Notes under the pieces: model-generated
What the model was told of the DNA's origin: nothing
What the model saw: the letters and a program-made list of their open reading frames with translations, nothing else
The model's database searches: none
Assembly (NCBI GenBank): GCA_017449025.1
Contig: JAFSKJ010000046.1
Coordinates: 1-39,911 of the forward strand
Reading direction: 5' to 3'
DNA length: 39,911 bases
Source of the DNA: Prevotella sp.
GTDB taxonomy: Bacteria > Bacteroidota > Bacteroidia > Bacteroidales > Bacteroidaceae
Part shown: piece after piece, positions 388-18,427 of the stretch
How the letters are laid out: each line of letters starts with the position of its first letter
How positions within the stretch are numbered: position 1 is the first letter of the stretch
Translations under genes and position numbers: made by a program

Positions 388-3096
388 ATGGAAACTTGGA
401 AAGCAAACCTCGAAGACACCAAACGGCGATACATCGACTGGTGGAACCACAAGGGCATCGTCCTCAACATGTGGGAGCACTTTCAGGAAGGTGTCAGCCC
501 TCATGCCGATGTACCCATGCCGCCACCTCCCCGCGACCTGAACCAGAAATGGTTCGACCCAGAGTGGCGTGCCGAATACTTAGACTGGTATGTTGCCCAC
601 TCGTCGCTCATGGCCGACATACTGCCCGTGGCCAATACGCAGTTAGGGCCTGGTTCGCTTGCTGCCATACTGGGCGGCGTGTATGAAGCCGGCCAGGACA
701 CCATCTGGATTCACCCCCGCCCCGTGGCCGACGGTTTCCCCGTAGACGACATTGTGTTCAACCCCGACCATCCCAACTACCAACTCCACAAAGCACTGCT
801 GAGGGCTTGCAAAGAGAAGGCCAAGGGCCACTACTATGTGGGAATGCCCGACCTGATGGAAGGCCTTGACGTGCTGGCAGCCATCGAGGGCACGGACAAG
901 GTGCTCTTGGACACGGTAATGCGGCCCGAGGTGGTGGAGCGACAGGTGGCGCAGATCAACGACATCTACTTCAAAGTGTTCGACGAGCTTTACGACATAA
1001 TCCGCGAGGGCGACGAGATGGCATTCTGCTACTTCTCCTCATGGGCACCGGGAAAGATGTCGAAACTGCAAAGCGACATATCGACCATGATTAGCCAAGA
1101 TGACTTCCGCCGGTTCGTGCAGCCGTTCATACGCGAGCAATGCCAGAAGATAGACTATACTCTCTACCATCTCGACGGCGTTGGTGCCATCCGTCACCTT
1201 GATGCACTGTTGGAGATTGACGAGCTGAACGCCATACAATGGACACCCGGCGTGGGTGAGCCGCAGGGAGGAAGTCCCAAATGGTACGACCTTTACAGGA
1301 AGATTCTTGACAACGGAAAGAGCATCATGGCGTGCTGGGTCACCCTCGACGAGCTGCGCCCGCTGCTTGACCATATCGGTGGCGACGGCGTGCACATAGA
1401 AATGGACTTCCACAATGAGCGCGAGGTGGAACAGGCCATGCGCATTGTCGAGGAGTATAAAGCCAAGCCCTTAGTTCTCGACGGAGCCATGGGAACGATG
1501 ATACAACAGCATGACCTGAAAGAAGAAGACTTCCGTGGATGCCTGTTTGCCCAGCATCCCGCCAACCTCAAAGGCTGCAACGACGTGCTGTCGCTGACAC
1601 GCCCCGACATCATCCGCCACATCCACCGCAAATACTTAGACGCTGGGGCCGACATTATTGAGACCAACACCTTTAACGCCCAGCGCATTTCCCTAAGCCA
1701 GTTTGGTTTGCAGCAGCATGGCCGCAGCATCAACCTTGCCGCAGCCAAGATTGCCCGTGAGTGCGCCAACGAGTTCTCATCGCCGGAAAAGCCCCGCTAT
1801 GTAGCTGGCAGCATAGGGCCTACCAGCCGCACCTTCATAAGTGAAGAGGGTGAAGAGAAGAGAGAAGAATTGGCTGCCGCACTCAATGAGGCCTACGAAG
1901 AGCAGATAGCAGCCCTCGCGGAAGGAGGTGTCGACGCCCTGCTCATCGAGACCATCTTCGATGTGGAGATTGCCCGCATAGCCATTGAGGCAGCACGCAG
2001 GATAGCGCCCCAATTGCCAATCATGCTCAGTTTCTCAGTCGCAACTCCCGATGGCCACAACATGCTGGGGCAGGATATTTGCAAGTTCATCAGCGAAGAG
2101 GTTAGAGGATGCTTCTCTGTAGGCATCAACTGCTTCACCGACGTAGCGCTGATGACACCGCTCATACGCCAACTCTCCCAATTCGGCACAAGAGTGAGCA
2201 TATATCCCAATGCCGGAATGCCTGACGCCAAAGGACGATACACGAAGACACCAGAGAGTCTGCTGCACGACGTATGGCCTTTGCTGGAAAACCATCAGCT
2301 GAATATAATTGGCGGATGCTGCGGCACCACAGACGCACATATCCGCCTGATGGCGAAAGCAGTGATGGGAAGCCCCCTCCTAACCTCCCCCTTGGGGGAG
2401 GAAGCCCCCCTCTCATCCCCCCCTGGGGGGAAGACAAACAGTTCCTCCCCCAAGGGGGAGGTTAGGAGGGGGCTTCTCTTCAATGCCATCGTAGACGGAA
2501 ACAGCGAGGAGGCGGTGGCTGCCACAAACGATGCCCTGGCCAAAGGCACCTCCCCTCAGGACCTGATAAACGGTCAGATGATACGCGCCATGAGCGAGGT
2601 AGGCCGGCGGTTCCAGGAAGGAAAAGCCTTCGTGCCACAGCTGCTCATGGCAGGGCGAGCCATGAAGGCTGCCTTGGAGCTGCTAAAACCCTTGATGGCG
2701 GGAACTTCCCTTACGTCATTGGGCAAGGTGGTTATCGGCACCGTGAAGGGCGACTTGCACGACATAGGCAAGAACCTCGTGGCCTCAATGCTCGAGGGCT
2801 GCGGCTTCCAGGTGGTTAACATTGGCATTGACGTTTCTGCCGATGCCTTCATCCAGGCCGTCAAGGAAAACCAGCCCGACATTCTCTGCATGTCGGCGCT
2901 GCTCACCACCACGATGGGCTATATGAAAGAGGTTATCGACGCCTTGGAGGCGGCTGGCATCCGCCAACAGGTGAAAGTGATGGTTGGCGGCGCTCCTGTC
3001 ACTCAGGGCTTTGCCGACGAGATTGGCGCAGACGGCTACAGCGACAATGCCAACTCAGCCGTCACCGTTGCCAAGCAACTACTTGGAAAACTTTAA
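388..3096 (+). CDS. URO-D-like / homocysteine S-methyltransferase / B12-binding fusion protein
   Basis: Predicted cytoplasmic corrinoid methyltransferase of 902 aa. Residues 1-355 resemble uroporphyrinogen-decarboxylase-type corrinoid methyltransferases, but the zinc HxC motif of MtaA/MtbA reads YHLDG here. Residues 360-655 are a MetH-type homocysteine S-methyltransferase domain with LDGAMGT (D365) and the three zinc cysteines C582, C644 and C645 (GGCCGT). Residues from about 697 to the end are a cobalamin cap and Rossmann domain with the DxHxxG cobalt ligand at H791. The pterin (methyl-folate) and reactivation domains of classical MetH are absent. I infer that the URO-D part supplies methyl from an unknown donor to cobalamin, and homocysteine accepts it. 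A 36-codon palindromic insert lies in the linker at 662-697. ATG at 388 is preferred to the in-frame TTG at 364. The 3' end overlaps the convergent reactivation gene by 18 bp. Confidence 0.85.
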   Translation: METWKANLEDTKRRYIDWWNHKGIVLNMWEHFQEGVSPHADVPMPPPPRDLNQKWFDPEWRAEYLDWYVAHSSLMADILPVANTQLGPGSLAAILGGVYEAGQDTIWIHPRPVADGFPVDDIVFNPDHPNYQLHKALLRACKEKAKGHYYVGMPDLMEGLDVLAAIEGTDKVLLDTVMRPEVVERQVAQINDIYFKVFDELYDIIREGDEMAFCYFSSWAPGKMSKLQSDISTMISQDDFRRFVQPFIREQCQKIDYTLYHLDGVGAIRHLDALLEIDELNAIQWTPGVGEPQGGSPKWYDLYRKILDNGKSIMACWVTLDELRPLLDHIGGDGVHIEMDFHNEREVEQAMRIVEEYKAKPLVLDGAMGTMIQQHDLKEEDFRGCLFAQHPANLKGCNDVLSLTRPDIIRHIHRKYLDAGADIIETNTFNAQRISLSQFGLQQHGRSINLAAAKIARECANEFSSPEKPRYVAGSIGPTSRTFISEEGEEKREELAAALNEAYEEQIAALAEGGVDALLIETIFDVEIARIAIEAARRIAPQLPIMLSFSVATPDGHNMLGQDICKFISEEVRGCFSVGINCFTDVALMTPLIRQLSQFGTRVSIYPNAGMPDAKGRYTKTPESLLHDVWPLLENHQLNIIGGCCGTTDAHIRLMAKAVMGSPLLTSPLGEEAPLSSPPGGKTNSSSPKGEVRRGLLFNAIVDGNSEEAVAATNDALAKGTSPQDLINGQMIRAMSEVGRRFQEGKAFVPQLLMAGRAMKAALELLKPLMAGTSLTSLGKVVIGTVKGDLHDIGKNLVASMLEGCGFQVVNIGIDVSADAFIQAVKENQPDILCMSALLTTTMGYMKEVIDALEAAGIRQQVKVMVGGAPVTQGFADEIGADGYSDNANSAVTVAKQLLGKL
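2369..2476. repeat. In-frame palindromic insertion in the methyltransferase gene
   Basis: A perfect 35-bp inverted repeat (2369-2403 and 2442-2476) surrounds a GC-rich centre. Each arm itself contains a smaller CCTCCCCC/GGGGGAGG palindrome. Total length is 108 bp, exactly 36 codons with no stop, encoding a Pro/Ser/Gly-rich segment with a PLLTSPLGE motif. It falls between the homocysteine-methyltransferase and B12-binding domains. A related copy is inside the GH31 gene. Confidence 0.9.
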
Positions 3097-3750
3097 ATTC
3101 CGCTTAAAGCATTGAGAGAAATCACAGAGTCCGCAGGCATAGTCAAGCTTGCGGACATTCTTGCCAAGCCCCACAATGCCGCTGACCGACTTGATGGGAA
3201 CCATCAGGGAGCTGTCCGTAAGACGCACGCCACAGGTATGGCCTTCGAACAGCGGGAAAAGCAGTTGCTGCTGCGACACATCCCAGCCGCAGTAGCCGGG
3301 AGAGAAGCGGTTGGTATGTTGCCACTGAAGTTTGTCGATGCTCTCCTGCAGGGTAGCTTCCATCACGTCGGCACACTTCTCCGCAATCACACTGCCCAGC
3401 GCATCGGCAATGAATATGCGCACCATGTCGCCCTTGTCATTCAGCCTTTGCTGGTATGCCTCATACTCGATGCCGCCGGTGCAGATGAAGAGAGCGTAAG
3501 CCTCAGAGCCACGCAGCTGACGCAGGATGATCTTGCCCATGTCGAAGACTGGCATTTCTCTCATGACCTGATAGCAGAACCGTGGATGCAGCCACGAACG
3601 CGCCTCTGCTATAATCGCCTGCGTCTCACGTCGTGTTGTGTCATCTGGTTCCGTATCGTGATAGCCCATCTGCTCAAAGACATCAGCAAGGGTTATCCCC
3701 AAAGCGTCGAAGTCAAGCGTTTTCTGCGTCATTGTATACTTTTTTACCAT
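3079..3750 (-). CDS. Methionine synthase reactivation-domain-like protein
   Basis: A 223-aa stand-alone relative of the C-terminal activation domain of cobalamin-dependent methionine synthase. That domain binds AdoMet and returns oxidised cob(II)alamin to methylcobalamin with an electron donor. NRFSPGYCGWD (R148, G152, Y153) matches the AdoMet-contact RxxxGY motif of MetH. A C-terminal cysteine set (C206, C209, C214) might bind metal, which is inference. The gene converges on the URO-D/Hcy-MT/B12 fusion, which lacks this domain, so the two very probably work together. ATG at 3750 has a weak AGGA about 9 nt upstream; an in-frame ATG at 3732 is possible. Confidence 0.82.
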   Translation of the reverse strand: MVKKYTMTQKTLDFDALGITLADVFEQMGYHDTEPDDTTRRETQAIIAEARSWLHPRFCYQVMREMPVFDMGKIILRQLRGSEAYALFICTGGIEYEAYQQRLNDKGDMVRIFIADALGSVIAEKCADVMEATLQESIDKLQWQHTNRFSPGYCGWDVSQQQLLFPLFEGHTCGVRLTDSSLMVPIKSVSGIVGLGKNVRKLDYACGLCDFSQCFKRNLKFSK

Positions 3751-3822: not shown

Positions 3823-5319
3823 ATGAAGCGATTATTCAACTGCATACTTCTGTTGCTGGCAGTCAGCACATTGCAAGCCGGAGAGATTGTTGTCAAGCCG
3901 GGAGAAAGCCTGCATAATGCCTTGCGCAAAGCCCGCGAGTGGCGGCGCACGAACGCCCCGCAATGCGAGGGCGGCATCACCATAGTTATAAAGGCGGGGC
4001 GGTATTACATGAGTGAGCCGCTGTTCATCCGTCCCGAGGATAGCGGCACAGCCGCCACCCCACTCCTTCTGAAAGGCGAAGAGGGAACAGTGATTTGTGG
4101 CGACCCAAAACAGCCTCGCAAGCAGATATGGCCTGAAGAGGGCATGGAGCGGATTGTAAGCTTCGACAAGGAGGCATGCACCATCACCATACCCCGGCAT
4201 GATTCACTATTGTTGGCAATGCCCAGCATGGAGATGGTTGTCCACCAGCGTTGGGCCATAGCCATTCTCCGTGTCAAGGACATGCGTGCCCACGACGATT
4301 CCATCGTTGTGTCGTTCAAGGAACCGGAGAGCCGACTGGAGTTCGAGCACCCCTGGCCTCAGCCGGTAATAGGAGGGGAGCGGGGCAACAGCTCGTTCCT
4401 GTTGCGCACAGCCGTCCAGCGCGACGGCATTGAGCAGCTGGTCATAGTGGATGGAGCCAACCACGTTGGTTTCGAAGGCATCACCTTCGAGAACACCTGC
4501 TGGAACCGTCCGCTGCACAAGGGGCATGTGACCCTGCAAGGGGGATTTCCTTTAGTCGATGCCTACAAGCTAAAGGAGAAGGAAGGTCTGCCTTGGGACG
4601 AGGTACTGGAAAACCAGGCTTGGATAGAACGTCCTGTCAGTGCGGTCGCTGTAAGAAACGCCGAGAGCGTCAGCTTCACAGGCTGCAGGTTCCAACATCT
4701 GTCGGCAACAGCCCTCGACTACGAGAGTGTGAACAACGGAACCATCAAGGGCTGCACGTTTGAGGACATCGGCGGCACGGCCATCTTGGCAGGCTCGTTT
4801 GCAGAGAGTCCGCTGGAAGTACATCGGCCATACACCCACTTGGCAGACAAATGTTCCGGTCTGCGCATTATAGGCAACACCATCCACGATGCCACCAATG
4901 AAGACTGGGGAGCAGTGGCCATAAGTTGCGGTTATGTGAAAAACACCACCATTGAAGGAAACACCGTCAGCCATGTCAACTACTCCGGCATCTGCATAGG
5001 ATGGGGATGGACGCCACACTATACAGGAATGGAGAACAACCACATTATTAATAATAAGGTGAGCGACTATGCCCGGCAGCTCTACGATGCCGGCGGAATC
5101 TACACACTGTCGAACCAGCCCAACTCCAGCATCAGCGACAATGAGATCAGTCCGCCCTACCCCGCCCCCTACGCCACTAACCACCGTGGTTTCTGCATCT
5201 ATCTCGATGCACGTACCGATGGTTACACCATAGAGAACAACAAATCAGGCGGCCGTCTGATTCGTCGCGACGAGATTGGCGACAATCACCCCGGCCCCAA
5301 CCTCATATTCAGGCAATGA
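3823..5319 (+). CDS. Secreted right-handed parallel beta-helix protein
   Basis: Protein of 498 aa with an N-terminal signal peptide (to about residue 19). The body shows periodic short strands with Asn- and Gly-rich turns (GNTIHDA, EGNTVSHVNYSGI, NHIINNKVSDY) typical of pectate-lyase-like right-handed beta-helices. The exact enzyme class cannot be read from sequence alone; members include polysaccharide lyases, GH120-like xylosidases and carbohydrate esterases. It lacks the usual N-terminal VSPxGxD segment of many such proteins. Its stop overlaps the GH31 start as ATGA, indicating translational coupling, so a role in the same glycan pathway is likely. Confidence 0.75.
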   Translation: MKRLFNCILLLLAVSTLQAGEIVVKPGESLHNALRKAREWRRTNAPQCEGGITIVIKAGRYYMSEPLFIRPEDSGTAATPLLLKGEEGTVICGDPKQPRKQIWPEEGMERIVSFDKEACTITIPRHDSLLLAMPSMEMVVHQRWAIAILRVKDMRAHDDSIVVSFKEPESRLEFEHPWPQPVIGGERGNSSFLLRTAVQRDGIEQLVIVDGANHVGFEGITFENTCWNRPLHKGHVTLQGGFPLVDAYKLKEKEGLPWDEVLENQAWIERPVSAVAVRNAESVSFTGCRFQHLSATALDYESVNNGTIKGCTFEDIGGTAILAGSFAESPLEVHRPYTHLADKCSGLRIIGNTIHDATNEDWGAVAISCGYVKNTTIEGNTVSHVNYSGICIGWGWTPHYTGMENNHIINNKVSDYARQLYDAGGIYTLSNQPNSSISDNEISPPYPAPYATNHRGFCIYLDARTDGYTIENNKSGGRLIRRDEIGDNHPGPNLIFRQ

Positions 5320-7598
5320 AGCAAACCAACTACCACCTTTTCGACTTCATGGACTTCGACCCTTCGCTGCAGGAGGACGAAGCCCTGTGGAAAGCATACG
5401 CACCGACCAGGATAGAAGAGCGCGACGGCGACATAGTCGTCAGCATTCCCTATCAGCGACAGAAGCATCAGGAAGACATGGCCCCCGATACGGAGTTTGA
5501 ACAGCAGACGTTCGACCTCGTCATCCGCGCCTACGAGCCAAACATCGTCCGCCTTTTCACCACCATGACTGCCGACGAGATGCTTGACAGCGACGAGATG
5601 CTGCAGATGGCACCGGAGATCAAGCACCTCACCCTCCGTTATGTATGCGGCGATGTCGTAGCCACTAACGGAAAGATATTGGCGACCATCGACCTCAGCG
5701 TGCCGCCACTTGACCATTGGAGCGACCTGCTGCCCCAGCCACAGCCCGCCCCATGTATCACCTTCTATCCAGACGGCGACCCCTCGAAGCCCGTAGCGCT
5801 GAGCGACGACCATTTCTCGCCGCCCCGCTACGATGCCCTGCCCCTGGGGTTTGTAACTACCTCGCAGGCAGAGCGAGCCACCATCAGCTTCCGTTGTGAG
5901 GCCGACGAGTGCTTTGCTGGCACAGGCGAGCGCTTCCGCAAGATGGACCTGAGCGGACAGACATTCCAACTGAAGAACCAGGACGGACAGGGCGTGAACA
6001 ACCGGCGCTGCTACAAGAACATTCCGTTCTTTCTTTCTTCGCGCATGTATGGAGCCTTCTTCCACACCTCCGACTGCTGTAAGCTGTCGTTGGCCGACCA
6101 CAGCACCCGCAGCGTACAGTTCCTCAACGACCGTGCCACCCTCGACGTGTTCCTTATCGGCGGCCAGTCGCCAGAGGAGATACTGCGGGGCTACCGCATG
6201 CTGACGGGCTTCCCTGCCATGCCGCCCCTCTGGAGCTTCGGCATCTGGATGAGCCGCATGACCTACTTCTCCGCCGACGAGGTTGAGGGCATCTGCGACC
6301 GCCTTCGCCGTGAGCACTACCCCTGCGATGTCATCCATCTCGACACCGGCTGGTTCCGCACCGACTGGCTCTGTGAGTGGAAGTTCAATCCCGAGCGGTT
6401 TCCTGACCCCAAGGCATTCATCAGCCGGCTGGCCAAGCAGGGTTTCAAGGTGTCGCTCTGGCAGCTGCCCTACATAGCCCAAGGTGCCGAACAAATCAAG
6501 GAGGCCAAGGAGAACCACTACATCAGCAGCCCCCTCCTAACCTCCCCCCTGGGGGAGGCCGGGAGGGGGGCTTCAGGGGGGGATGAGAGGGGGGCCTCCT
6601 CCAACTTCTCAGCCCTCGACTACGCCGGAACCATCGACTTCACATATCCCAAAGCCGTTGAGTGGTACAAGAACAAGTTGCTGAAGCCACTGCTACAGAT
6701 GGGCGTGAAGTGCATCAAGACCGACTTCGGCGAGAACATCCATACGGACCACCAGTACCATGCCATGACCCCGCAACAACTGAACAATCTGTATGCCCTG
6801 CTTTACCAACGGGCTGCCTTTGAGGTGACTCGTGAAGTGACGGGCGACGGCATAGTCTGGGCACGTGCCGCCTGGGCTGGCTGTCAGCGCTATCCACTCC
6901 ACTGGGGAGGCGATTCTGCATCCACATGGGACGGAATGGCTGGCTCGCTCAAGGGCGGACTACACCTCGGCCTTTCGGGCTTCGCCTTCTGGAGTCACGA
7001 TGTGCCGGGGTTCCATTCCACTCCCGACTTTATGAACTCCCCGCTCGACGAGCAGGTATATGTGCGCTGGACACAGTTCGGCGTGTTCACCTCACACATG
7101 CGCTACCACGGCACCTGCAAACGCGAGCCTTGGCACTATCCGCAGATAGCGCCCATCGTCAAGCGCTGGTGGAAGCTCCGCTACCGGCTCATCCCCTATA
7201 TCATCAGCCAGTCGGAGCAGGCTTGCCGCTGCGGACTGCCACTACTGCAGGCACTGCTCATACGCCATCCCCACGACAGGCAGGTGTGGCATATCGACGA
7301 CGAGTATTACTTCGGCCATGAGTTTCTGGTATGCCCAGTCATGAATGCCGACAACCATCGCGACATATATTTGCCCGTAGGTCTTTGGGTCAACTTCTTC
7401 ACCGGCGAACGCCTTGAAGGTGGCCGCTGGTACTACCATGTGGAAGTGGCTCTCGACCAGATGCCAGTCTTCGTCCGTCCGGGGGCTTCCATACCTGTTT
7501 ATCCGCACGATGTGGACTCTACCGACGACATGGACCTCACAAAAGCCACAACCATAGAAATAACAAAAGACTACAAAGGTCTGGAACTTGAAGATTGA
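5316..7598 (+). CDS. GH31 alpha-xylosidase (YicI-like)
   Basis: A 760-aa GH31 glycosidase without an evident signal peptide, so probably acting inside the cell on imported xyloglucan oligosaccharides such as isoprimeverose. The nucleophile lies in KTDFGE (D470) and the acid/base in HWGGDS (D533). The KTDFGE form is typical of alpha-xylosidases rather than alpha-glucosidases. An N-terminal beta-sandwich (about 1-240), a TIM barrel with WRTDWLCEW and FAFWSHDVPGF, and a C-terminal beta domain are visible. A palindrome-derived insert of about 25 residues (405-429) lies between KENHYIS and NFSALDY, in a loop before the nucleophile strand. It overlaps the upstream beta-helix gene by 4 bp and is followed 4 bp later by the symporter. 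Confidence 0.92.
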   Translation: MKQTNYHLFDFMDFDPSLQEDEALWKAYAPTRIEERDGDIVVSIPYQRQKHQEDMAPDTEFEQQTFDLVIRAYEPNIVRLFTTMTADEMLDSDEMLQMAPEIKHLTLRYVCGDVVATNGKILATIDLSVPPLDHWSDLLPQPQPAPCITFYPDGDPSKPVALSDDHFSPPRYDALPLGFVTTSQAERATISFRCEADECFAGTGERFRKMDLSGQTFQLKNQDGQGVNNRRCYKNIPFFLSSRMYGAFFHTSDCCKLSLADHSTRSVQFLNDRATLDVFLIGGQSPEEILRGYRMLTGFPAMPPLWSFGIWMSRMTYFSADEVEGICDRLRREHYPCDVIHLDTGWFRTDWLCEWKFNPERFPDPKAFISRLAKQGFKVSLWQLPYIAQGAEQIKEAKENHYISSPLLTSPLGEAGRGASGGDERGASSNFSALDYAGTIDFTYPKAVEWYKNKLLKPLLQMGVKCIKTDFGENIHTDHQYHAMTPQQLNNLYALLYQRAAFEVTREVTGDGIVWARAAWAGCQRYPLHWGGDSASTWDGMAGSLKGGLHLGLSGFAFWSHDVPGFHSTPDFMNSPLDEQVYVRWTQFGVFTSHMRYHGTCKREPWHYPQIAPIVKRWWKLRYRLIPYIISQSEQACRCGLPLLQALLIRHPHDRQVWHIDDEYYFGHEFLVCPVMNADNHRDIYLPVGLWVNFFTGERLEGGRWYYHVEVALDQMPVFVRPGASIPVYPHDVDSTDDMDLTKATTIEITKDYKGLELED
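6528..6602. repeat. In-frame palindromic insertion in the GH31 gene
   Basis: A GC-rich palindrome (AGCCCCCTCC ... GGAGGGGGGCT with an inner CCTCCCCC/GGGGGAGG) is followed by part of a second one. It is in frame without stops and encodes SPLLTSPLGEAGRG and a Gly-rich tail. The left arm matches the left arm of the insertion at 2369-2476, including the PLLTSPLGE peptide. Confidence 0.85.
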
Positions 7599-7602
7599 AA
7601 CT

Positions 7603-9162
7603 ATGGAAAGTCATTACATGCACTCGCCCGACTGGCTCATTCTCGCCGCCTATTTCGCCATTCTGCTTACCATAGGCATCTGGGCCAGCATAAAGCGCAA
7701 GAAGAACAGCTCGCTCTTCCTTGCCGAGCACTCCCTGCGCTGGCATCACATCGGTTTCTCCATGTGGGGAACCAACGTAGGTCCCTCCATGCTCATAGCA
7801 TCGGCCTCTGCCGGTTTCACCACGGGCATCGTATCAGGCAATTTTGCATGGTATGCCTTTGTGTTCATAGCCTTGCTCGCCTTTGTCTTCGTGCCCCGCT
7901 ATTTGGGAGCCAACGTGAGCACCCTGCCTGAGTTCATGGGACTGCGCTTCGGACAGTCCACCCGCAACATCCTGGCCTGGTACACCATAGTCACCATAGT
8001 CATCTCCTGGCTTGCCCTGACACTGTTTGCCGGAGGCATACTCATACGGCAGGTCTTCGACATACCCATGTGGATGTCAGCCCTGGTGCTGCTCGTCATT
8101 TCCGCTTTCTTCACCATGCTCGGCGGACTGAAAGCCGTGGCCTACACCAATGTCTACCAGATGATACTGCTCATAGCCGTATCACTGATACTGGTCATCG
8201 TGGGCCTCGACCGCGTAGGAGGCTTCTCTGCGCTCGTAGCCAAGGTTCCCGCCGACTACTGGGTGATGTTCAAGCCCAACAGCGACGAGGCGTTCCCCTG
8301 GCTGCCCATCATCCTCGGCTACCCCGTCATGGGAGTGTGGTTCTGGTGTACCGACCAGAGCATGGTACAGCCCGTCCTTGCCGCCAAGAACCTCCGCGAG
8401 GGACAACTCGGCACCAACTTCACCGGCTGGCTGAAGATTCTCGATGTTGCCCTCTACATCCTGCCAGGTATCATCTGCTACGCCCTCTTCCCCACATTGG
8501 AGAACCCTGACGAAGCCTATCTGACGATGGTAGAGAACCTGTTTCCCGTGGGCATGGTGGGACTGGTGTTCGCCGTGCTAACGGCCTGTCTGGTCAGCAC
8601 CATCGGCTCTGCCCTCAACGCCTTGAGCACTGTCTTCACCATGGACATCTATGTCAAGCGGTTCAACCCCCATGCCTCGCAGCGCCGCATAAACATTGTT
8701 GGCCGTTCGGTGACAGTAGCGGGAGCCTTACTGGCCATCGCCCTCACCGTGGCCATCGATGCCATCAAGGGCCTCAACCTCTTCAACGTGTTCCAAAGCG
8801 TCCTTGGCTTCATTGCGCCACCGATGGCTGCCGTTTTCCTCCTTGGCATCTTCTGGAAGCGCACCACCACCCGCGCCGCCAATTTTGCACTGACCGTCGG
8901 CACCGCCTTCTGCCTCACCGTGGGCGTGCTCTTCCTGTGGCCACCCCAGTGGCTTCAGTTCCCCTGGCCCCACTTCATGCTTCTCTCGTTCGAGCTCTTC
9001 GTCATCATCGTCATATCCATGGTGATTATTTCACTCGCTGACAGAGAAAAGTCACGCTATGCCATTCCCGCCCCCATCCAAGAGAACTTCTCGAAACTTG
9101 CCGTCAGCCTATGGACAGCCTTGGCCGTGGTGATGATTGGGCTATACATTTATTTCAATTAA
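7603..9162 (+). CDS. SSS-family sodium:solute symporter
   Basis: A 519-aa integral inner-membrane protein with about 13 hydrophobic segments, of the sodium:solute symporter family. The signature region STIGSALNALSTVFTMDIY near residue 345 fits the sodium-site helix. The first helix starts at WLILAAYFAILL and is followed by the usual GxWASxKRKK loop. Together with the coupled GH31 alpha-xylosidase, I infer that it imports a sugar or short oligosaccharide released from xyloglucan or xylan. ATG at 7603 is chosen; the in-frame TTG at 7588 would overlap the GH31 end. Confidence 0.88.
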   Translation: MESHYMHSPDWLILAAYFAILLTIGIWASIKRKKNSSLFLAEHSLRWHHIGFSMWGTNVGPSMLIASASAGFTTGIVSGNFAWYAFVFIALLAFVFVPRYLGANVSTLPEFMGLRFGQSTRNILAWYTIVTIVISWLALTLFAGGILIRQVFDIPMWMSALVLLVISAFFTMLGGLKAVAYTNVYQMILLIAVSLILVIVGLDRVGGFSALVAKVPADYWVMFKPNSDEAFPWLPIILGYPVMGVWFWCTDQSMVQPVLAAKNLREGQLGTNFTGWLKILDVALYILPGIICYALFPTLENPDEAYLTMVENLFPVGMVGLVFAVLTACLVSTIGSALNALSTVFTMDIYVKRFNPHASQRRINIVGRSVTVAGALLAIALTVAIDAIKGLNLFNVFQSVLGFIAPPMAAVFLLGIFWKRTTTRAANFALTVGTAFCLTVGVLFLWPPQWLQFPWPHFMLLSFELFVIIVISMVIISLADREKSRYAIPAPIQENFSKLAVSLWTALAVVMIGLYIYFN

Positions 9163-9204: not shown

Positions 9205-9236
9205 CTTGCTGTTACTAACTTTTTTTACTACCTTTG
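9205..9236 (+). promoter_or_regulatory. Bacteroidetes-type promoter before the secreted paralogue operon
   Basis: CTTG at 9205-9208, a 20-nt spacer and TACCTTTG at 9229-9236 match the -33/-7 consensus. Transcription would start near 9243, so the ATG at 9279 must be used. An inverted repeat CAGCAAGC (9166-9173) / GCTTGCTG (9204-9211) overlaps the -33 element and could be an operator or the end of the upstream terminator. Confidence 0.7.
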
Positions 9237-9278
9237 CGGCGAATAACGAGAACATTATTAACACGAACAACTAATATT

Positions 9279-11945
9279 ATGCGTATGAAGAGATTATTTA
9301 CTATTTGCCTGTTAGCCCTGGCTGCCGCAGTAAGCGCCGAGGCACAGGGTTATCGCAAGTGGGACTTCACACAGTGGAGCCAAAACACCATCTCAAACCT
9401 GCAGGCCGAGGCCCAGAAGGGAGTCACCGGAGGCACATGGTCGGACACGGAGAAAGCCGACGGCTCCAATCCCCAGGTGGGAAAGTGCTACTGGTCGTAT
9501 GGCGACAACGTCATCGACGGAGCATTGGCAGCCAACGGCGCCATCATCAGCGAGACCGACGGCCTGGTGTTCAACACTGCTTACACCACACGCCGTTCGC
9601 TGGCCATAGCCATTGACTATCCCTCAACGTCGCTCGGCGACTATGCCGGTCCGCAGTATCTGTGGTTAGGCGGCGGCAAGAACAAGATTGCATGCTTCAC
9701 CATCCCCAAGGTGCGCATAGGCCAGAAGATGACCTTCGTGGTGGAGAGCCACAAACCGGCGGAGGGGCGCGGCATTGAGCTTTACGTAGGCACCACCGAC
9801 GACGAGAACCGCATAGGCGAGTCGTTCACTCCGAAGACCCAGGAGACTTACACCTGGGAAGAGGGCTGGACGGTGCCCGCCGGAGCCACCGACAATGGCG
9901 ACGGCACCGTGGACGTGATTGTCTACAACACCAACGGCTGCCACATCTACAGCATTGAGTTGGGCGACAACTCGCAGAAGTCGAAAGTGGGCTACCTCTA
10001 CAACGGCTCCATAGATGCCGAGCTGGCATACGCCCAACTGTCGGCCAGCGACAAGTACACCGTGGAGCCAATAGAGGCACTCGGCACGTTCACTGCCGAC
10101 GACCTGACGGCCTACGACGCTCTTGTCATCAGCTCTACTGTTGACAACGCCTACACCATCGCCCTGCTCAAGAGCGTGCAGCCCTTTGTGCCCGTGCTCA
10201 ACCTGAATCCGGCACTCTATGAGGCATGGGGCTATGGGGCCATCGGCGCCGGCCACATGTTTGCCGTTGCCACCAATCCGTCACACGCCCTGTTCAAGGG
10301 CATCGACCTGATTGAGAACCCCGACAACGAGAACAAGGCCGAGGTACTTGCCCTGACTCAGTCGACACCCTACCAGGGCGTTACGCTTAGCGGTCTGTTT
10401 GCCGACGACCAGGTGCTGGCCACTGTCATGGAGAGCACCGATGTAGCCATCCACGGCCACAATCTCAACCACAACGGCTACATCTACATACCATACACGC
10501 AGGAGGCACTGGCCAATGCTGCCACACCACAGTTGCTGCTGAATGCGCTGTCGGTGGTGGTGGCCTCTAAGGCCAAGGTGACCAAGGCTCCCGCTCCTTC
10601 GTTCTCATTTGAGTATAAGGACAAGAACACCAATGTCACCATCAGCTGCGGCGTTCCCGGTGCACAGATCTTCTATACCCTCGACGGCAGCACGCCAACA
10701 ACAGAGAGCACACCCTATAGCGAGCCTATCAACGTGACAGCCGAAGGTGTTACCGTCAAGGCCGTGGCTTTAGGCGACGGCTATCTGCTCAGCGACGTGT
10801 CGGAGAAGGCCGTCGACCTGAAGAACCAGGCTCCGCAACCCACCATAGCCATGACCCAGGAAGACGGCAAGACCGTAGTCACACTTGCCAGTAGCATGGA
10901 GGGCGCAGTCATCTATTACAACTACGACGGAAAGACCGAGACGGCACAGTCTACTCTGTACACCGAGCCTATAGCCATCGACATCCTTGGCCGCACCATC
11001 TATGCCTTCACCGTGGCCGAGGGCTACGTGAATTCCGAACTGGCCTCACAGGCTGTGACCATCCAGAACCCGAAGGTGCGCATCGACGTGCTGGCACACA
11101 TGGATGCCAACGCCACCGAGTACAACAACGGCAGCACTTCCACCGCCTACTACTTCTCATGGGGCAAGGACAAGGCAGCCTACTCTTACTGGGACACCAG
11201 CGCCGAGCCAACCATCACCACAGACCCCGAGACGGGCGACGAGATTTCCGTCTATCCGCTAAGCCCCGAGGAGACCGTTGACTTCGAGAACGGATGGATG
11301 ATAGGCTCACGCGGACAGGTGGTGATATGGGAGAAGGACGGCTACACCATGAACTACGGCGACACCAACGGCCGCAACCCCGCCACCGTAGACGACATTG
11401 ACCCCAACTTCCCCATAGAGAAATACTTCATCACCTTAGGCGAGAAGGCCAACGACGGCACTGTGCCCTACAATGCCTACATAGCCACCACCGTGGCCTA
11501 TGCAGGCCCGTTCGACGTGGTGGCCTACGTGGGCAACGGCTCAAAGCCTGATGCTGCCAAGGAGGTGCAGGACCACCAGAACGTGGTGTTCGAGGTGTCG
11601 GCAGACAAGGAGACCTGGACACAGCTCGGCGACACGTTAGACGTCATCGGCCCGCGCCTGTTCCATAAGTTCACCCGCAGCTACGAGGGCACCGACGCCG
11701 TCTACCTGCGTGCCCGCCTGGCAGCCAACAACTCGAAGGCACAGTTCTACGAGATTTACATTGCCAACGAGGGCGAGAAGTCGAAGGCCCTAATGTCGGG
11801 CATCAACGACCAGCTCGCCGACGGCAAGGAGGCTCGCGTAGCCACCGTCTACAGCCTGAACGGCATGCGCCAGAACAGTCTGCGCCGTGGCATCAACATT
11901 GTGCGCTACAGCGACGGCACCGCCCGCAAGGTGATGGTGAAATAA
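9279..11945 (+). CDS. Secreted multidomain protein with CHB_HEX_C repeats (paralogue 1)
   Basis: An 888-aa exported protein with a signal peptide ending near AEAQG. After a jelly-roll-like N-terminal region (KWDFTQWS) comes an alpha/beta segment of about 200 aa (VGYLYNG ... GHNLNHNGYIYIPY) and two tandem chitobiase/beta-hexosaminidase C-terminal-type domains (about 437-517 and 520-594; FYTLDGSTPT and YYNYDGKTET). A discoidin-like C-terminal region and a terminal sorting-like tail follow (VYSLNGMRQNS ... RKVMVK). No catalytic signature is recognised. Its neighbour downstream is a full-length paralogue, and the GH43 gene follows, so a surface glycan-binding or scaffold role is plausible but unproven. 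Confidence 0.75.
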   Translation: MRMKRLFTICLLALAAAVSAEAQGYRKWDFTQWSQNTISNLQAEAQKGVTGGTWSDTEKADGSNPQVGKCYWSYGDNVIDGALAANGAIISETDGLVFNTAYTTRRSLAIAIDYPSTSLGDYAGPQYLWLGGGKNKIACFTIPKVRIGQKMTFVVESHKPAEGRGIELYVGTTDDENRIGESFTPKTQETYTWEEGWTVPAGATDNGDGTVDVIVYNTNGCHIYSIELGDNSQKSKVGYLYNGSIDAELAYAQLSASDKYTVEPIEALGTFTADDLTAYDALVISSTVDNAYTIALLKSVQPFVPVLNLNPALYEAWGYGAIGAGHMFAVATNPSHALFKGIDLIENPDNENKAEVLALTQSTPYQGVTLSGLFADDQVLATVMESTDVAIHGHNLNHNGYIYIPYTQEALANAATPQLLLNALSVVVASKAKVTKAPAPSFSFEYKDKNTNVTISCGVPGAQIFYTLDGSTPTTESTPYSEPINVTAEGVTVKAVALGDGYLLSDVSEKAVDLKNQAPQPTIAMTQEDGKTVVTLASSMEGAVIYYNYDGKTETAQSTLYTEPIAIDILGRTIYAFTVAEGYVNSELASQAVTIQNPKVRIDVLAHMDANATEYNNGSTSTAYYFSWGKDKAAYSYWDTSAEPTITTDPETGDEISVYPLSPEETVDFENGWMIGSRGQVVIWEKDGYTMNYGDTNGRNPATVDDIDPNFPIEKYFITLGEKANDGTVPYNAYIATTVAYAGPFDVVAYVGNGSKPDAAKEVQDHQNVVFEVSADKETWTQLGDTLDVIGPRLFHKFTRSYEGTDAVYLRARLAANNSKAQFYEIYIANEGEKSKALMSGINDQLADGKEARVATVYSLNGMRQNSLRRGINIVRYSDGTARKVMVK

Positions 11946-12021: not shown

Positions 12022-14646
12022 ATGAAGAAACTATTTACTTTAGCAGCACTGCTCGTATGCGTATGCCTCGGCAGCAGTGCACAGGACAAGAAACAATGGG
12101 AGTTCACCAACGGTTGGGTCTCCGAACAGACCATTGCCAACCTTGTTGCAGATTCCAAGTGGACAACGCAGTTTAAAGACGACGGCTCCTTCGACAGGGC
12201 TTTCGAAGCCTCCAAACAGTCAGGCCCGTTCATGGCCAACGGCGAGCTGATTCCGGAGCTTGAAGGCCTGAGCCTCGGCACTGCCGGACTGAGCAGCAGT
12301 AACAACGTGATTATCTTCAACAACCGCTTACGCGTGAACCGCAACAATATGGAGCTGATACTGCCCAAGCTCAAGGGCGGACAGACAGTGAAGCTCCGTG
12401 CACGCTCGGCCAACGCCGACGCCACCAACCGCGGCTTCAAGGCCGGCTACGACTACATGGAGGTGGTGCAGCAGCCTGAGGGCGGCCTCTGTCCCGGAGG
12501 CAACAAAGAGTCTGCCGACCGCGACGATGACGGCAACTACACCTTCATCTGGAAAATCAGCGACAGCGTGACCGAAGAGTCTGACGTGAAGATCGTAGCC
12601 GTTACCGGCGGTCTCGACATAGTGCTCATACAGATTGACGAGGGCGACGTGCCCCTGACATCGAAGGTGCTATACTTCAGCAACGGCGATGACGACACCT
12701 ATCTGCCCAACATCCTGCGTGCGCGTGAAAACACAGAGGTGACGGTGGTCGACGTGGCCACGGTGCCCTCCGACATGAACGAGGCCGCCGCCTTCGCCTC
12801 CAACCTGGCAGAGCAGAACGACGTGCTGGTAATATCGCCACTCGTTCCCGCAAACCACAGCGCCAGCAGCCTGGCACGCTCGGCACTGCCCTTCATGCCC
12901 GTGCTGAACTTCAACTCTACCCTCTATACTGCTTGGGGCTACGGCCAAGCCATTCCCACCAACGGCTTCGTGAAAATCAAGTCGCCGAAGAACGGGCTGT
13001 TCAAGGGCGTTGAGTACGAGGAGTCTGAGGAGGGCAACGTGCTCATAGTGTCGCAGAACGCCTACGAGACGCAGATGATGGCCGTGAACCTGGGCTACTA
13101 TTTCGAGGGCGACGATGTGCTGGCCGTAGGCATGGACGAGACGGCTCCCGTGGCCATACACACCCACAACATCAACCACAACGGCTACATTTACTTCCCC
13201 TACGTGACCGACTATACCGATGCAGCCGTGCAGGCCATACACAACGCCATCAACCTGCTCACCAGCTCGAAGGCTCCAATCACCAACACCCCCGCACCGG
13301 TGTTCTCGCGCGAGTACAAGGACCAGCAGACCATTGTCACCATCTCTCCGTCACGCTCACTGCCTAAGACCATCATCTACTACACCACCGACGGCACCAC
13401 TCCCTCGGTGTTCAGCACCACCTATCGCGAGCCCATCACCATCACAGAGCCTTGCACCGTCAAGGCCGTGGCCATTGCCGAGGGCTACAACATGAGCGAG
13501 GCTTCGGCGTTCAACGTGAAGGTCAAGGCACAGCCCAAGACCCCAGCGATTGCCACCGAAGAGTCGGAAGGCTTCACCACCATCACGCTGAGCTGCGAGA
13601 CCGAGCTTGCCGACATCTGGTACAACTTCGACAACACCACCGACACCATCAAGTCGTCGCGCTACATCGAGCCTGTCATCATCAAGATGCCGGCCACCAT
13701 AACAGTCTTTGCCCTCGACACCCTGGAACGTGGTGAGGAGGTTTGGTCGGAGGCAGCCTCACAGCGCGTGCTTGTCAAGAACCCGCGCGTGGTAATCGAT
13801 GTGGCCGGACACTTCCGCGCTTCCAAGTGGGACGATGTGGCCAACGGCGGCGGTGTGTTCCCCATTGGTAAGACGGCCACTTCCATGTATGACACCAGCG
13901 CAGACCCCATCGGCACCACCGTTGACCCGGAGACGGGCGACGAGACACCACTCTATCCCGAGGTGGAATGGATGGTGCGCGACGAGCCTGGCGATGCTCC
14001 CGAATGGCAGATAATGTCGAAGGGACAGAGCGTGCTGTGGCAGAACCTTACTGCACAGACAGGACAGATAGGCACCAACGAGGGTGGCTACTTCCCCTCT
14101 GTTGCCGAGGACATCGACCCGCTGTTCCCCATCACAAGCTATGACATACAGTTCTACAACATCTTCGCCGGAGAGCCTGCCAATGCAGCCATCATGTCGA
14201 AGAACAAGTATCAGGGACCGCTCGACATAGTAACCATAGCCAACATGCAGGGAGGCCCCATCCTGGCTCAGGTGTCTGCCGACGGCAAGGAATGGACCAC
14301 CGTGGGCGACGAGATTGCCAAGACAGGCTATTCACGCATGTGGAAGAAGTATGTCAACAGCTACGACGGCAACGACGAGGTCTACGTGCGTGTGGCCCAG
14401 ACCACCGGCGGTGCAGGAGCCAAGATCTTCGACATCTACGTTGCCAACGCCGGCGAGAAGTCGCAGGCACTGCTTGCCGAGCTGCAGGAGGAGTACCTCA
14501 ACGGCATCGAGGACGTGCAGATGGGCAAGAGCACTGTTCCCGCTGGCATCTATAGCATCAGCGGCAGCCGCCTGACCAGCCCCAAGCGCGGACTGAACAT
14601 CGTGGTAGGCACCAACGGCAAGGCTAAAAAGGTCATGATTAAGTAA
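12022..14646 (+). CDS. Secreted multidomain protein with CHB_HEX_C repeats (paralogue 2)
   Basis: An 874-aa exported protein with a signal peptide (MKKLFTLAALLVCVCLGSSA). Architecture matches the upstream gene segment by segment: WEFTNGW start, alpha/beta middle with HTHNINHNGYIYFPY, two CHB_HEX_C-type domains (IIYYTTDGTTPS, WYNFDNTTDT), a discoidin-like C-terminal region and the tail IYSISGSRLTSPKRGLNIV. The two are tandem duplicates that have diverged strongly. The GH43 gene starts 6 nt after its stop. Function unknown; probably glycan binding at the cell surface. Confidence 0.75.
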   Translation: MKKLFTLAALLVCVCLGSSAQDKKQWEFTNGWVSEQTIANLVADSKWTTQFKDDGSFDRAFEASKQSGPFMANGELIPELEGLSLGTAGLSSSNNVIIFNNRLRVNRNNMELILPKLKGGQTVKLRARSANADATNRGFKAGYDYMEVVQQPEGGLCPGGNKESADRDDDGNYTFIWKISDSVTEESDVKIVAVTGGLDIVLIQIDEGDVPLTSKVLYFSNGDDDTYLPNILRARENTEVTVVDVATVPSDMNEAAAFASNLAEQNDVLVISPLVPANHSASSLARSALPFMPVLNFNSTLYTAWGYGQAIPTNGFVKIKSPKNGLFKGVEYEESEEGNVLIVSQNAYETQMMAVNLGYYFEGDDVLAVGMDETAPVAIHTHNINHNGYIYFPYVTDYTDAAVQAIHNAINLLTSSKAPITNTPAPVFSREYKDQQTIVTISPSRSLPKTIIYYTTDGTTPSVFSTTYREPITITEPCTVKAVAIAEGYNMSEASAFNVKVKAQPKTPAIATEESEGFTTITLSCETELADIWYNFDNTTDTIKSSRYIEPVIIKMPATITVFALDTLERGEEVWSEAASQRVLVKNPRVVIDVAGHFRASKWDDVANGGGVFPIGKTATSMYDTSADPIGTTVDPETGDETPLYPEVEWMVRDEPGDAPEWQIMSKGQSVLWQNLTAQTGQIGTNEGGYFPSVAEDIDPLFPITSYDIQFYNIFAGEPANAAIMSKNKYQGPLDIVTIANMQGGPILAQVSADGKEWTTVGDEIAKTGYSRMWKKYVNSYDGNDEVYVRVAQTTGGAGAKIFDIYVANAGEKSQALLAELQEEYLNGIEDVQMGKSTVPAGIYSISGSRLTSPKRGLNIVVGTNGKAKKVMIK

Positions 14647-17017: not shown

Positions 17018-18427
17018 ATGAAGCCTATGAAACCGAGAATGCTTCTATTGCAGGCTGTGCTCGTGCTGCCGCTACTGGCTTTCGCCCAGAATACGGGTGA
17101 AAGCCAGAAGCCGCCGCAGATGTCGCTGACACAGCAGGAACAGCAGATGGTGGAGTGCAGCAATGACTTTGCATTCCGTCTCTTCAGCGAAGCGCGCGGC
17201 GAAAAAAGCAGCGTGCTCTCGCCGCTGAGCGTGACATTCGCACTCGGACTGCTTAACAACGGCGCGGCAGGACTGACGCAGCAGGAAATAGTCAACGTGC
17301 TGGGCTTCGGCCTATTAAGTTCTTCGGACAGCAACACTGAGGCCACCGACGGCATCAACATGTTCTGCCGAAAGATGCTCACCGAGGCTCCTGCCCTCGA
17401 CAAGGAGACCAGCGTGCTGCTGTCGAACGCCATCTTCCTCAACATAGACGAGCCGCGATGCCTGCTACCCGAGTTCGTGGACATAGCAACCAAATACTAT
17501 GACGCCACCACGCAGATGAGCAACTTCAACGACGGGAAGACCATGGACGCCATCAACCAGTGGGCCAGCGACCACACCAATGGCATGATTCCACAGATAT
17601 TCAACGAAGAGACGTTCAAGACCGACGTGGCTTCCTACCTGCTCAATGCCGTCTACTTCAAGGGCTGCTGGACCAAAGAGTTCAACCCCGACGAGACCCG
17701 CGAAGAGCCGTTTGGCGAATTAAAGGAGATGCTGCCCATGATGCACCAGAACGGCACCTTCGGCTATGCCGAGGACGGCATCTGCCAGATGCTGCGCATG
17801 TACTACGGCAACGGTGCCTATTGCATGACGGTGATGCTGCCTAACAAGGACAAGACCGTAGACGACGTGGTGAAAACCCTCAGCACCAAGCGGTGGGACA
17901 ACCTCCGCAGGATGTCGGCGAAAGAGGTAGACGTGAAGATGCCGCGCTTCGACACCGACACCCATGTCAACCTGGTGGACGTGATGAAGACTCTCGGCAT
18001 GAAGCGTGCCTTCGACAAGGACCTGGCCGAGATTCCCTATTACTGCAACATACCGCAGTACATCACCAACATGTTCCAGTCTGCCAGGCTCAAGCTCGAC
18101 GAGAAGGGCACCGAGGCGGCTGCCGTCACCGTGATAGAGACCTCCGACAAGGCGGTCATGCCCGACAAGGTGCGTGAGTTCCATGCCGACCGTCCGTTTG
18201 TCTATATCATCAGCGAGCAGTCGTCAGGCACCATCTTCTTCATTGGCCAGTACACCGGTGAGGTTGGCGTGCTCTCAAGGCCACAGGGCATTGAGGATGC
18301 CACCCGCCAGTCAGCATCCGTGACCGGCAGCCCCCAGGCCGTCGACCTTCAGGGGCGGCGCGTCAAGAGCGGGCAGGCAAGGAAGGGTGTCTACATTGTC
18401 GAAGGGCGCAAGGTCGTGGTTAAGTGA
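17018..18427 (+). CDS. Secreted serpin-family protease inhibitor
   Basis: A 469-aa serpin with a signal peptide (LLLQAVLVLPLLAFAQ). The core runs from about residue 45 (NDFAFRLFSEA, SPLSVTFALGLL) to the C-terminal RPFVYIISEQSSGTIFFIGQ strand. The hinge KGTEAAAVTV (363-372) has the small-residue pattern of inhibitory serpins. The reactive loop continues to about residue 390 and contains Asp, Lys, Ala and Val rather than an obvious single P1. After the serpin fold a short tail (VDLQGRRVKSG ... GRKVVVK) matches those of other exported proteins here. It may protect surface enzymes from host or competitor proteases (inference). ATG at 17027 is an alternative start. Confidence 0.9.
   Translation: MKPMKPRMLLLQAVLVLPLLAFAQNTGESQKPPQMSLTQQEQQMVECSNDFAFRLFSEARGEKSSVLSPLSVTFALGLLNNGAAGLTQQEIVNVLGFGLLSSSDSNTEATDGINMFCRKMLTEAPALDKETSVLLSNAIFLNIDEPRCLLPEFVDIATKYYDATTQMSNFNDGKTMDAINQWASDHTNGMIPQIFNEETFKTDVASYLLNAVYFKGCWTKEFNPDETREEPFGELKEMLPMMHQNGTFGYAEDGICQMLRMYYGNGAYCMTVMLPNKDKTVDDVVKTLSTKRWDNLRRMSAKEVDVKMPRFDTDTHVNLVDVMKTLGMKRAFDKDLAEIPYYCNIPQYITNMFQSARLKLDEKGTEAAAVTVIETSDKAVMPDKVREFHADRPFVYIISEQSSGTIFFIGQYTGEVGVLSRPQGIEDATRQSASVTGSPQAVDLQGRRVKSGQARKGVYIVEGRKVVVK

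Follow-up and report, generated by a model that had tools for sequence, protein, structure and literature searches.

In the chloromethane protein CmuA, a methyltransferase domain and a corrinoid domain are fused, the methyltransferase MtaA features an HxC zinc motif, and core methionine synthases, which are related to MetE, lack folate domains. Removal of a methyl ether from a sugar is, to our knowledge, known only as P450 chemistry in aerobes. CmuA acts as methyltransferase I (MTI) and as corrinoid protein (CP) (PMC13222342), and a P450 demethylates 6-O-methyl-galactose oxidatively, giving formaldehyde (PMC10033563). A stretch of 39,911 nucleotides from Prevotella sp. (assembly GCA_017449025.1, contig JAFSKJ010000046.1; hereafter the window) was found to encode a fusion protein in which an N-terminal domain (N-domain) with a predicted URO-D fold precedes a MetH-type homocysteine domain and a corrinoid part. 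We assign a probability of roughly 55% to the reading that this single chain takes the methyl group from a methyl-ether sugar and moves it via B12 to homocysteine, with 2-O-methyl-xylose, deduced from the gene context, as the specific donor. The fusion is probably an oxygen-independent demethylase for this methyl sugar.

Domain architecture of the fusion protein

According to Pfam, the fusion chain features a homocysteine domain (residues 362–659), a corrinoid cap (697–767) and a corrinoid-binding domain (779–892). Residues 1–357 were assigned a predicted URO-D fold in a VIA-align second look at the ranking by Foldseek. This three-domain architecture agrees with the initial annotation of the DNA, and the residues C582, C644, C645 and H791 named there were all present upon residue check. 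The same holds for the missing folate domain, as the pterin-binding domain PF00809 yielded no Pfam match in the chain. The PF01717-type catalytic domain of core methionine synthases gave no match either. Its score against the MetH equivalog TIGR02082 is 475 bits, which is below the cut-off of 1010.85 bits.

The homocysteine domain is 44–47% identical to the same domain in four MetH proteins. For the corrinoid part, the identity to MetH is 31–37%, while five more distant loci encode corrinoid proteins or domains with values of 47–72%. The corrinoid part of the form found in Phocaeicola vulgatus ATCC 8482 scored 220 bits with the MtgC model and 157 bits with the MetH model; the corrinoid part is of the MtgC/MtbC type. 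Judged from sequence, the fusion looks like a MetH-type homocysteine domain combined with an MTI and corrinoid unit.

The URO-D fold, put forward by the initial annotation as a refutable claim, was found in the predicted structure, but sequence profiles do not show it. Neither PF01208 (URO-D) nor the MtaA/CmuA family TIGR01463 (NCBIfam) matched the N-domain at E ≤ 1, and a phmmer search against the PDB yielded nothing at the same threshold. A profile search with the N-domain gave four weak matches, one of which was CdmB at E 0.39, and was not used as proof. Comparison with an MtaA-like partner protein (see below) by hhalign resulted in a probability of 14%.

Where the HxC zinc motif would stand, the N-domain has HxD, which is conserved at ≥99% in 89 sequences and is in line with the lack of HxC noted initially. 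In total, 109 N-domain positions are conserved at ≥99%, a count that excludes the distant relatives L038–L042 (set A2 excludes four distant relatives). This conservation points to an active site and not to a spare part. A corrinoid MTI that is independent of zinc is known in CdmB (PMC13222342), which speaks for the preferred reading.

Recurrence, gene neighbourhood and the candidate donor

A scan of contigs yielded 313 related stretches, of which the best 80 were used for the locus counts. These belong mostly to Prevotella or Prevotellaceae, with further members in Phocaeicola, Bacteroides and Marseilla, and P. vulgatus ATCC 8482 (L064) is among them. All three domains occur in the same order in 67 of the 79 readable loci. 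Ten loci, nine from Bacteroides/Phocaeicola and one from Prevotella, lack the homocysteine domain, and two with open reading frames running to the contig end feature the N-domain and the homocysteine domain only. The ten loci keep the N-domain and the corrinoid part together with GH31 (10/10) and the symporter (9/10); their proteins would have to hand the methyl group elsewhere, perhaps to a URO-D partner or to MetH. More distant loci of another family encode either the full fusion (L029, L036, L037) or the N-domain as a separate protein (L030–L035).

In 393 genomes of the order, the N-domain was detected at E ≤ 1e-5 in 15, ten of which gave strong matches. The two same-genus genomes in this search lack it, so the distribution is patchy, and the fusion has perhaps moved between lineages. 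Of 395 genomes sampled from the phylum, that of the window alone yielded a match at E ≤ 1e-20.

Neighbouring genes were labelled by BLAST matches (E ≤ 1e-8, >40% of the query), paralogues included, and locus L109, in which an antisense open reading frame masks the N-domain, was excluded from the counts. In the 41 loci with full flanks, we found the symporter in 35, GH31 in 33 and GH141 in 30; the activation gene was present in 29 and a MtaA/CmuA-type URO-D gene in 26. Symporter, GH31 and GH141 are all nearby in 30 of the 41. The symporters of L047, L092 and L095, counted among the 35, look different, and the GH31 of L100 stands in another setting.

Gene order varies. The activation gene of the window is convergent with the fusion gene and is followed by GH141, GH31 and the symporter, these three forming an overlapping run. 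In many Prevotella loci, the fusion gene faces the activation gene and the URO-D gene on the opposite strand, after which GH141, GH31 and the symporter run forward. The order in Bacteroides/Phocaeicola is GH141, GH31, fusion and symporter, all in one direction. Nine more distant loci (L029–L037, with L033 and L034 being short contigs) have the symporter at most one gene away from the N-domain in 9/9, GH31 in 6/9 and GH141 in 5/9 cases, again in differing orders. That the gene content is kept while the order changes suggests that the genes are functionally linked. Across the 393 genomes, nine are shared between the ten with a strong N-domain and the 15 with a strong GH141_M match (p 8.8e-14, with thresholds chosen after the matches were known); in two of the nine (G108, G384), both genes are on different contigs.

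Genes for L-fucose isomerase (within ~10 kb in 5/80 loci), aldo/keto reductase (7/80), amidohydrolase (9/80) and alcohol dehydrogenase (9/80) lend weak support, because they lie mostly at one chromosomal site and beyond the other genes. Upstream of the fusion gene in L061, GH2-like, GH106, esterase and GH78-like genes were found.

The methyl-xylose-fucose bond is reportedly the one linkage of rhamnogalacturonan II (RG-II) left uncut by Bacteroides thetaiotaomicron. This species is described as cleaving all RG-II glycosidic linkages but one (PMC12282258), and its endo-acting BT1002 frees 2-O-methyl-D-xylose-alpha-1,3-L-fucose from side chain A (PMC10154630). The GH141 of the window matches the BT_1002 structure 5mqp with 323 bits, and its D422 and D462 align with Asp 528 and 569 of the 5mqp chain, which were taken as the catalytic D523 and D564 with an offset of 5 counted by hand. 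A second GH141_M frame of >1100 aa, possibly part of an RG-II gene set, is present on another contig of the same genome (C21, L159).

The best match of the window GH31 is 5f7c (1161 bits), deposited as alpha-glucosidase and presumably a B. thetaiotaomicron protein, followed by YicI with 354–366 bits. The motif KTDFGE, which we take to be a sign of xylosidase-type GH31, is present in 54 of 56 homologues. A cytosolic GH31 of this type beside a symporter fits with uptake of methyl-xylose-fucose and its subsequent cleavage. Two genes of the window contain a G+C-rich palindromic repeat in frame, at 2373–2472 in the fusion linker between the homocysteine and corrinoid domains and at 6530–6602 in the GH31 interior. 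Its arm has 21 copies in the genome at ≤1 mismatch (reversed control: 0), and the repeat is absent from the P. vulgatus protein and from 5f7c.

By analogy with its homologue BT1002, an extracytoplasmic GH141 would release 2-O-methyl-xylose-alpha-1,3-fucose from RG-II side chain A, and the sodium symporter would bring the disaccharide in. The domain of predicted URO-D fold would bring the methyl sugar to the cob(I)alamin bound by the C-terminal domain, with the methyl group passing to cobalt and xylose leaving. From there, the MetH-type zinc domain, in which the ligands are present, would pass the methyl group to homocysteine, giving methionine without methyl-folate, while the neighbouring activation protein would recover oxidised corrinoid. 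The initial annotation had speculated that the donor is a methoxylated plant compound. The conserved symporter, GH31 and GH141 back this idea and narrow the donor to a methyl sugar, an assignment made from gene context. Somewhat short of even odds, and thus tentatively, gut and rumen Bacteroidales may possess a dedicated anaerobic methyl-sugar:homocysteine methyltransferase, which would transfer the methyl group of RG-II 2-O-methyl-xylose to methionine using cob(I)alamin and without oxygen, formaldehyde or methyl-folate, with a gene set that would cut the methyl-xylose-fucose linkage.

Several points weigh against the preferred reading. No corrinoid enzyme is known to us that removes the methyl group from a sugar ether, and sequence profiles fail to connect the N-domain with URO-D. 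As the loci are related to one another, their counts cannot be treated as independent trials. GH31 is missing in 8 and GH141 in 11 of the 41 loci with full flanks. In L047, L092, L095 and L118, the fusion instead occurs with a DapA-like gene and with a symporter that visibly differs (L-fucose isomerase is also part of this setting), and in L076 with a SBD_N/NBD_C kinase, a BKACE gene and an MFS-like transporter; hence, donors may differ between loci. The distant relatives L038–L042 (~25% identity) lie beside sugar transporters and glycosidases, and BLAST revealed no corrinoid, homocysteine or activation gene in the stretches examined. The GH141 of the window is far from BT1002 (323 bits compared to 884 bits for that of L031) with a shortened insertion domain, and the family also includes a xylanase (PMC10154630).

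Such settings without GH31 and GH141, together with the known URO-D-superfamily aromatic O-demethylases OdmB and VdmB (PMC10418091), would suit the same methyl path with another imported donor (methyl sugar, methyl glycoside or methoxylated aromatic), in which GH31 and GH141 supply a precursor or are neighbours for another reason. We regard this as unlikely, given the joint presence of GH31, GH141 and symporter in most loci with full flanks and the strong GH141_M match in 9 of the 10 genomes with a strong N-domain, twice on another contig.

The features of the window are compiled in Table 1. Beyond the symporter gene, the window features adjacent paralogues at 9234–11945 and 12022–14646 (903 and 874 aa) with Fn3_assoc/CHB_HEX_C_1 domains, and a serpin-family protease inhibitor gene at 17018–18427 (PF00079, E 4.6e-84).

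Table 1 Genes and domains at the fusion locus (positions in the window)
Feature	Position	Strand	Remarks
Fusion gene, 902 aa	388..3096	+	start ATG at 388
N-terminal URO-D-fold domain, residues 1–357	388..1458	+	proposed methyl-sugar:corrinoid methyltransferase; predicted fold
MetH-type homocysteine S-methyltransferase domain with C582, C644, C645	1471..2364	+	PF02574, E 8.8e-82
Corrinoid cap and corrinoid-binding domain, DxHxxG-type motif with H791	2476..3063	+	PF02607, PF02310
Activation-type protein, 223 aa, C-terminal CxxCx4C	3079..3750	-	proposed reactivase; PF02965 partial, E 1.9e-12
GH141, N-terminal signal-like sequence, BT1002 homologue, insertion domain shortened	3823..5319	+	PF21231, E 2.4e-32
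GH31, alpha-xylosidase (YicI) type, no visible signal peptide	5316..7598	+	PF01055, E 9.4e-88
Sodium:solute symporter	7588..9162	+	proposed importer; PF00474, E 9.1e-54

URO-D partner, activation protein and methionine synthase

A 336-aa MtaA/CmuA-type URO-D gene is present in P. vulgatus (L064, 14382–15389), with 44 homologues at other loci. The term self-contained, used in the initial annotation, applies only in part, given the loci with this extra gene and those without the homocysteine domain. The partner protein matches PF01208 with 188 bits, features HNCGN in 45/45 sequences and has MtaA (4ay7) as best PDB match, and in many relatives its gene lies next to the activation gene or overlaps with it. 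These properties would suit an entry of the methyl group via the partner, e.g. from methyl-sulfur compounds, in analogy to what has been proposed for mlp clusters, leaving the N-domain with another task. We consider this quite improbable, since it is the N-domain that is fused to the corrinoid domain and since the partner gene is absent from the window locus, missing in 15 of the 41 loci with full flanks and not represented by a PF01208 match over the cut-off in the incomplete genome of the window.

The activation protein of the window matches the activation domain profile except for the N-terminal section of the latter. Its C-terminal CxxCx4C tail, present in 48 of 48 homologues, this protein included, may provide ligands for a metal or an iron-sulfur cluster. 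A second free-standing activation gene of the same genome (C34:2173–2934, L001) encodes a 273-aa protein with the full profile, adjoins a dihydroorotase-like gene and has, unlike the window type, two scattered cysteines instead of the tail. By these sequence features, the window protein is a type of its own; the C34 gene is likely the partner of an ordinary split MetH, the core of which is missing from the assembly.

MetH was found over the cut-off in 16 of 17 genomes checked. It is split into a core (open frames of 911–994 aa) and a separate activation protein (258–339 aa) in 13 of them and in one piece in three (G019, G064, G219). In the draft genome of Marseilla massiliensis An824 (L083), neither an over-cut-off MetH nor a PF01717 match was found, and PF01717 was absent from 12 of 12 genomes checked. 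In B. thetaiotaomicron, MetH is likewise split (BT0180/BT0249, from GapMind; PMC7311316). We therefore rejected the view that the separate reactivation gene is a mark of a new pathway, which the initial annotation had implied, because canonical MetH is itself split. Since 16 of the 17 genomes already have MetH, the fusion is usually an addition, which may serve as extra methionine supply or methyl sink. A dependence of the window's genome on the fusion alone was also rejected: searches of its assembly revealed no MetH core, no MetE-type PF01717 and no pterin-binding PF00809, but this is not readable as absence, because the completeness of the assembly is 80.65% and MetH is present in both genomes of the same genus that were checked.

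Least probable, and only marginally behind an entry via the URO-D partner, is a remodelled methionine synthase fed with methyl-folate by another protein, with the N-domain as docking or spare part: the MetH-type homocysteine domain and the existence of split MetH systems whose corrinoid protein is annotated as MtbC (PMC5764234) are compatible with it, whereas the common co-occurrence with MetH, the retention of N-domain, corrinoid part, GH31 and symporter in the ten relatives without homocysteine domain, and the conserved N-domain positions speak against it.

Comparison with known systems

If the preferred reading of a methyl-sugar demethylase is true, a sugar methyl ether would be removed independently of oxygen. 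The reading would then account for what becomes of the methylated end of RG-II side chain A in the gut, add sugars to the methanol, amines, halides and aromatics on which corrinoid methyltransferases act, and let plant methyl groups feed methionine directly. The close relative in the cultured gut strain P. vulgatus ATCC 8482 makes the proposal testable. In the titles and abstract starts of the open-licence literature surveyed, no corrinoid or anaerobic sugar demethylase and no such gene set is described. Within this literature, corrinoid methyltransferase systems are well known, while the sugar-ether donor and the one-chain link to homocysteine look new.

MetH (TIGR02082, including the split BT0180/BT0249) shares the type of homocysteine domain, a corrinoid domain and an activation-type partner with the fusion system. 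The latter differs in that a URO-D-fold domain takes the position of the folate domain, the corrinoid part is nearer to MtgC/MtbC and the activation protein is shorter and has the CxxCx4C tail. The fusion of a methyltransferase domain to a corrinoid domain is shared with CmuA, above all by the 600-aa form of P. vulgatus, but a TIGR01463 match and HxC are lacking in the fusion, the homocysteine domain is inserted in the window form and the gene setting is another. Based on its sequence and predicted fold, the fusion has domains that could play the parts of MTI, corrinoid protein and methyltransferase II (MTII). The logic from MTI via corrinoid to acceptor that is proposed for it is shared with three-component O-demethylases and Cdm, of which CdmB is zinc-independent; different from these are the homocysteine acceptor domain, the single chain, an activator of the MetH-activation type and the sugar-degradation setting. 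Synthesis of methionine without methyl-folate, as proposed here, is common to the core methionine synthases MesA–MesD (PMC7857596), from which the fusion is distinguished by a PF02574 domain within a multi-domain chain. The P450 acting on 6-O-methyl-galactose likewise removes a sugar methyl ether inside a glycan-degradation gene set, whereas the route proposed for the fusion would need no oxygen and would retain the methyl group.

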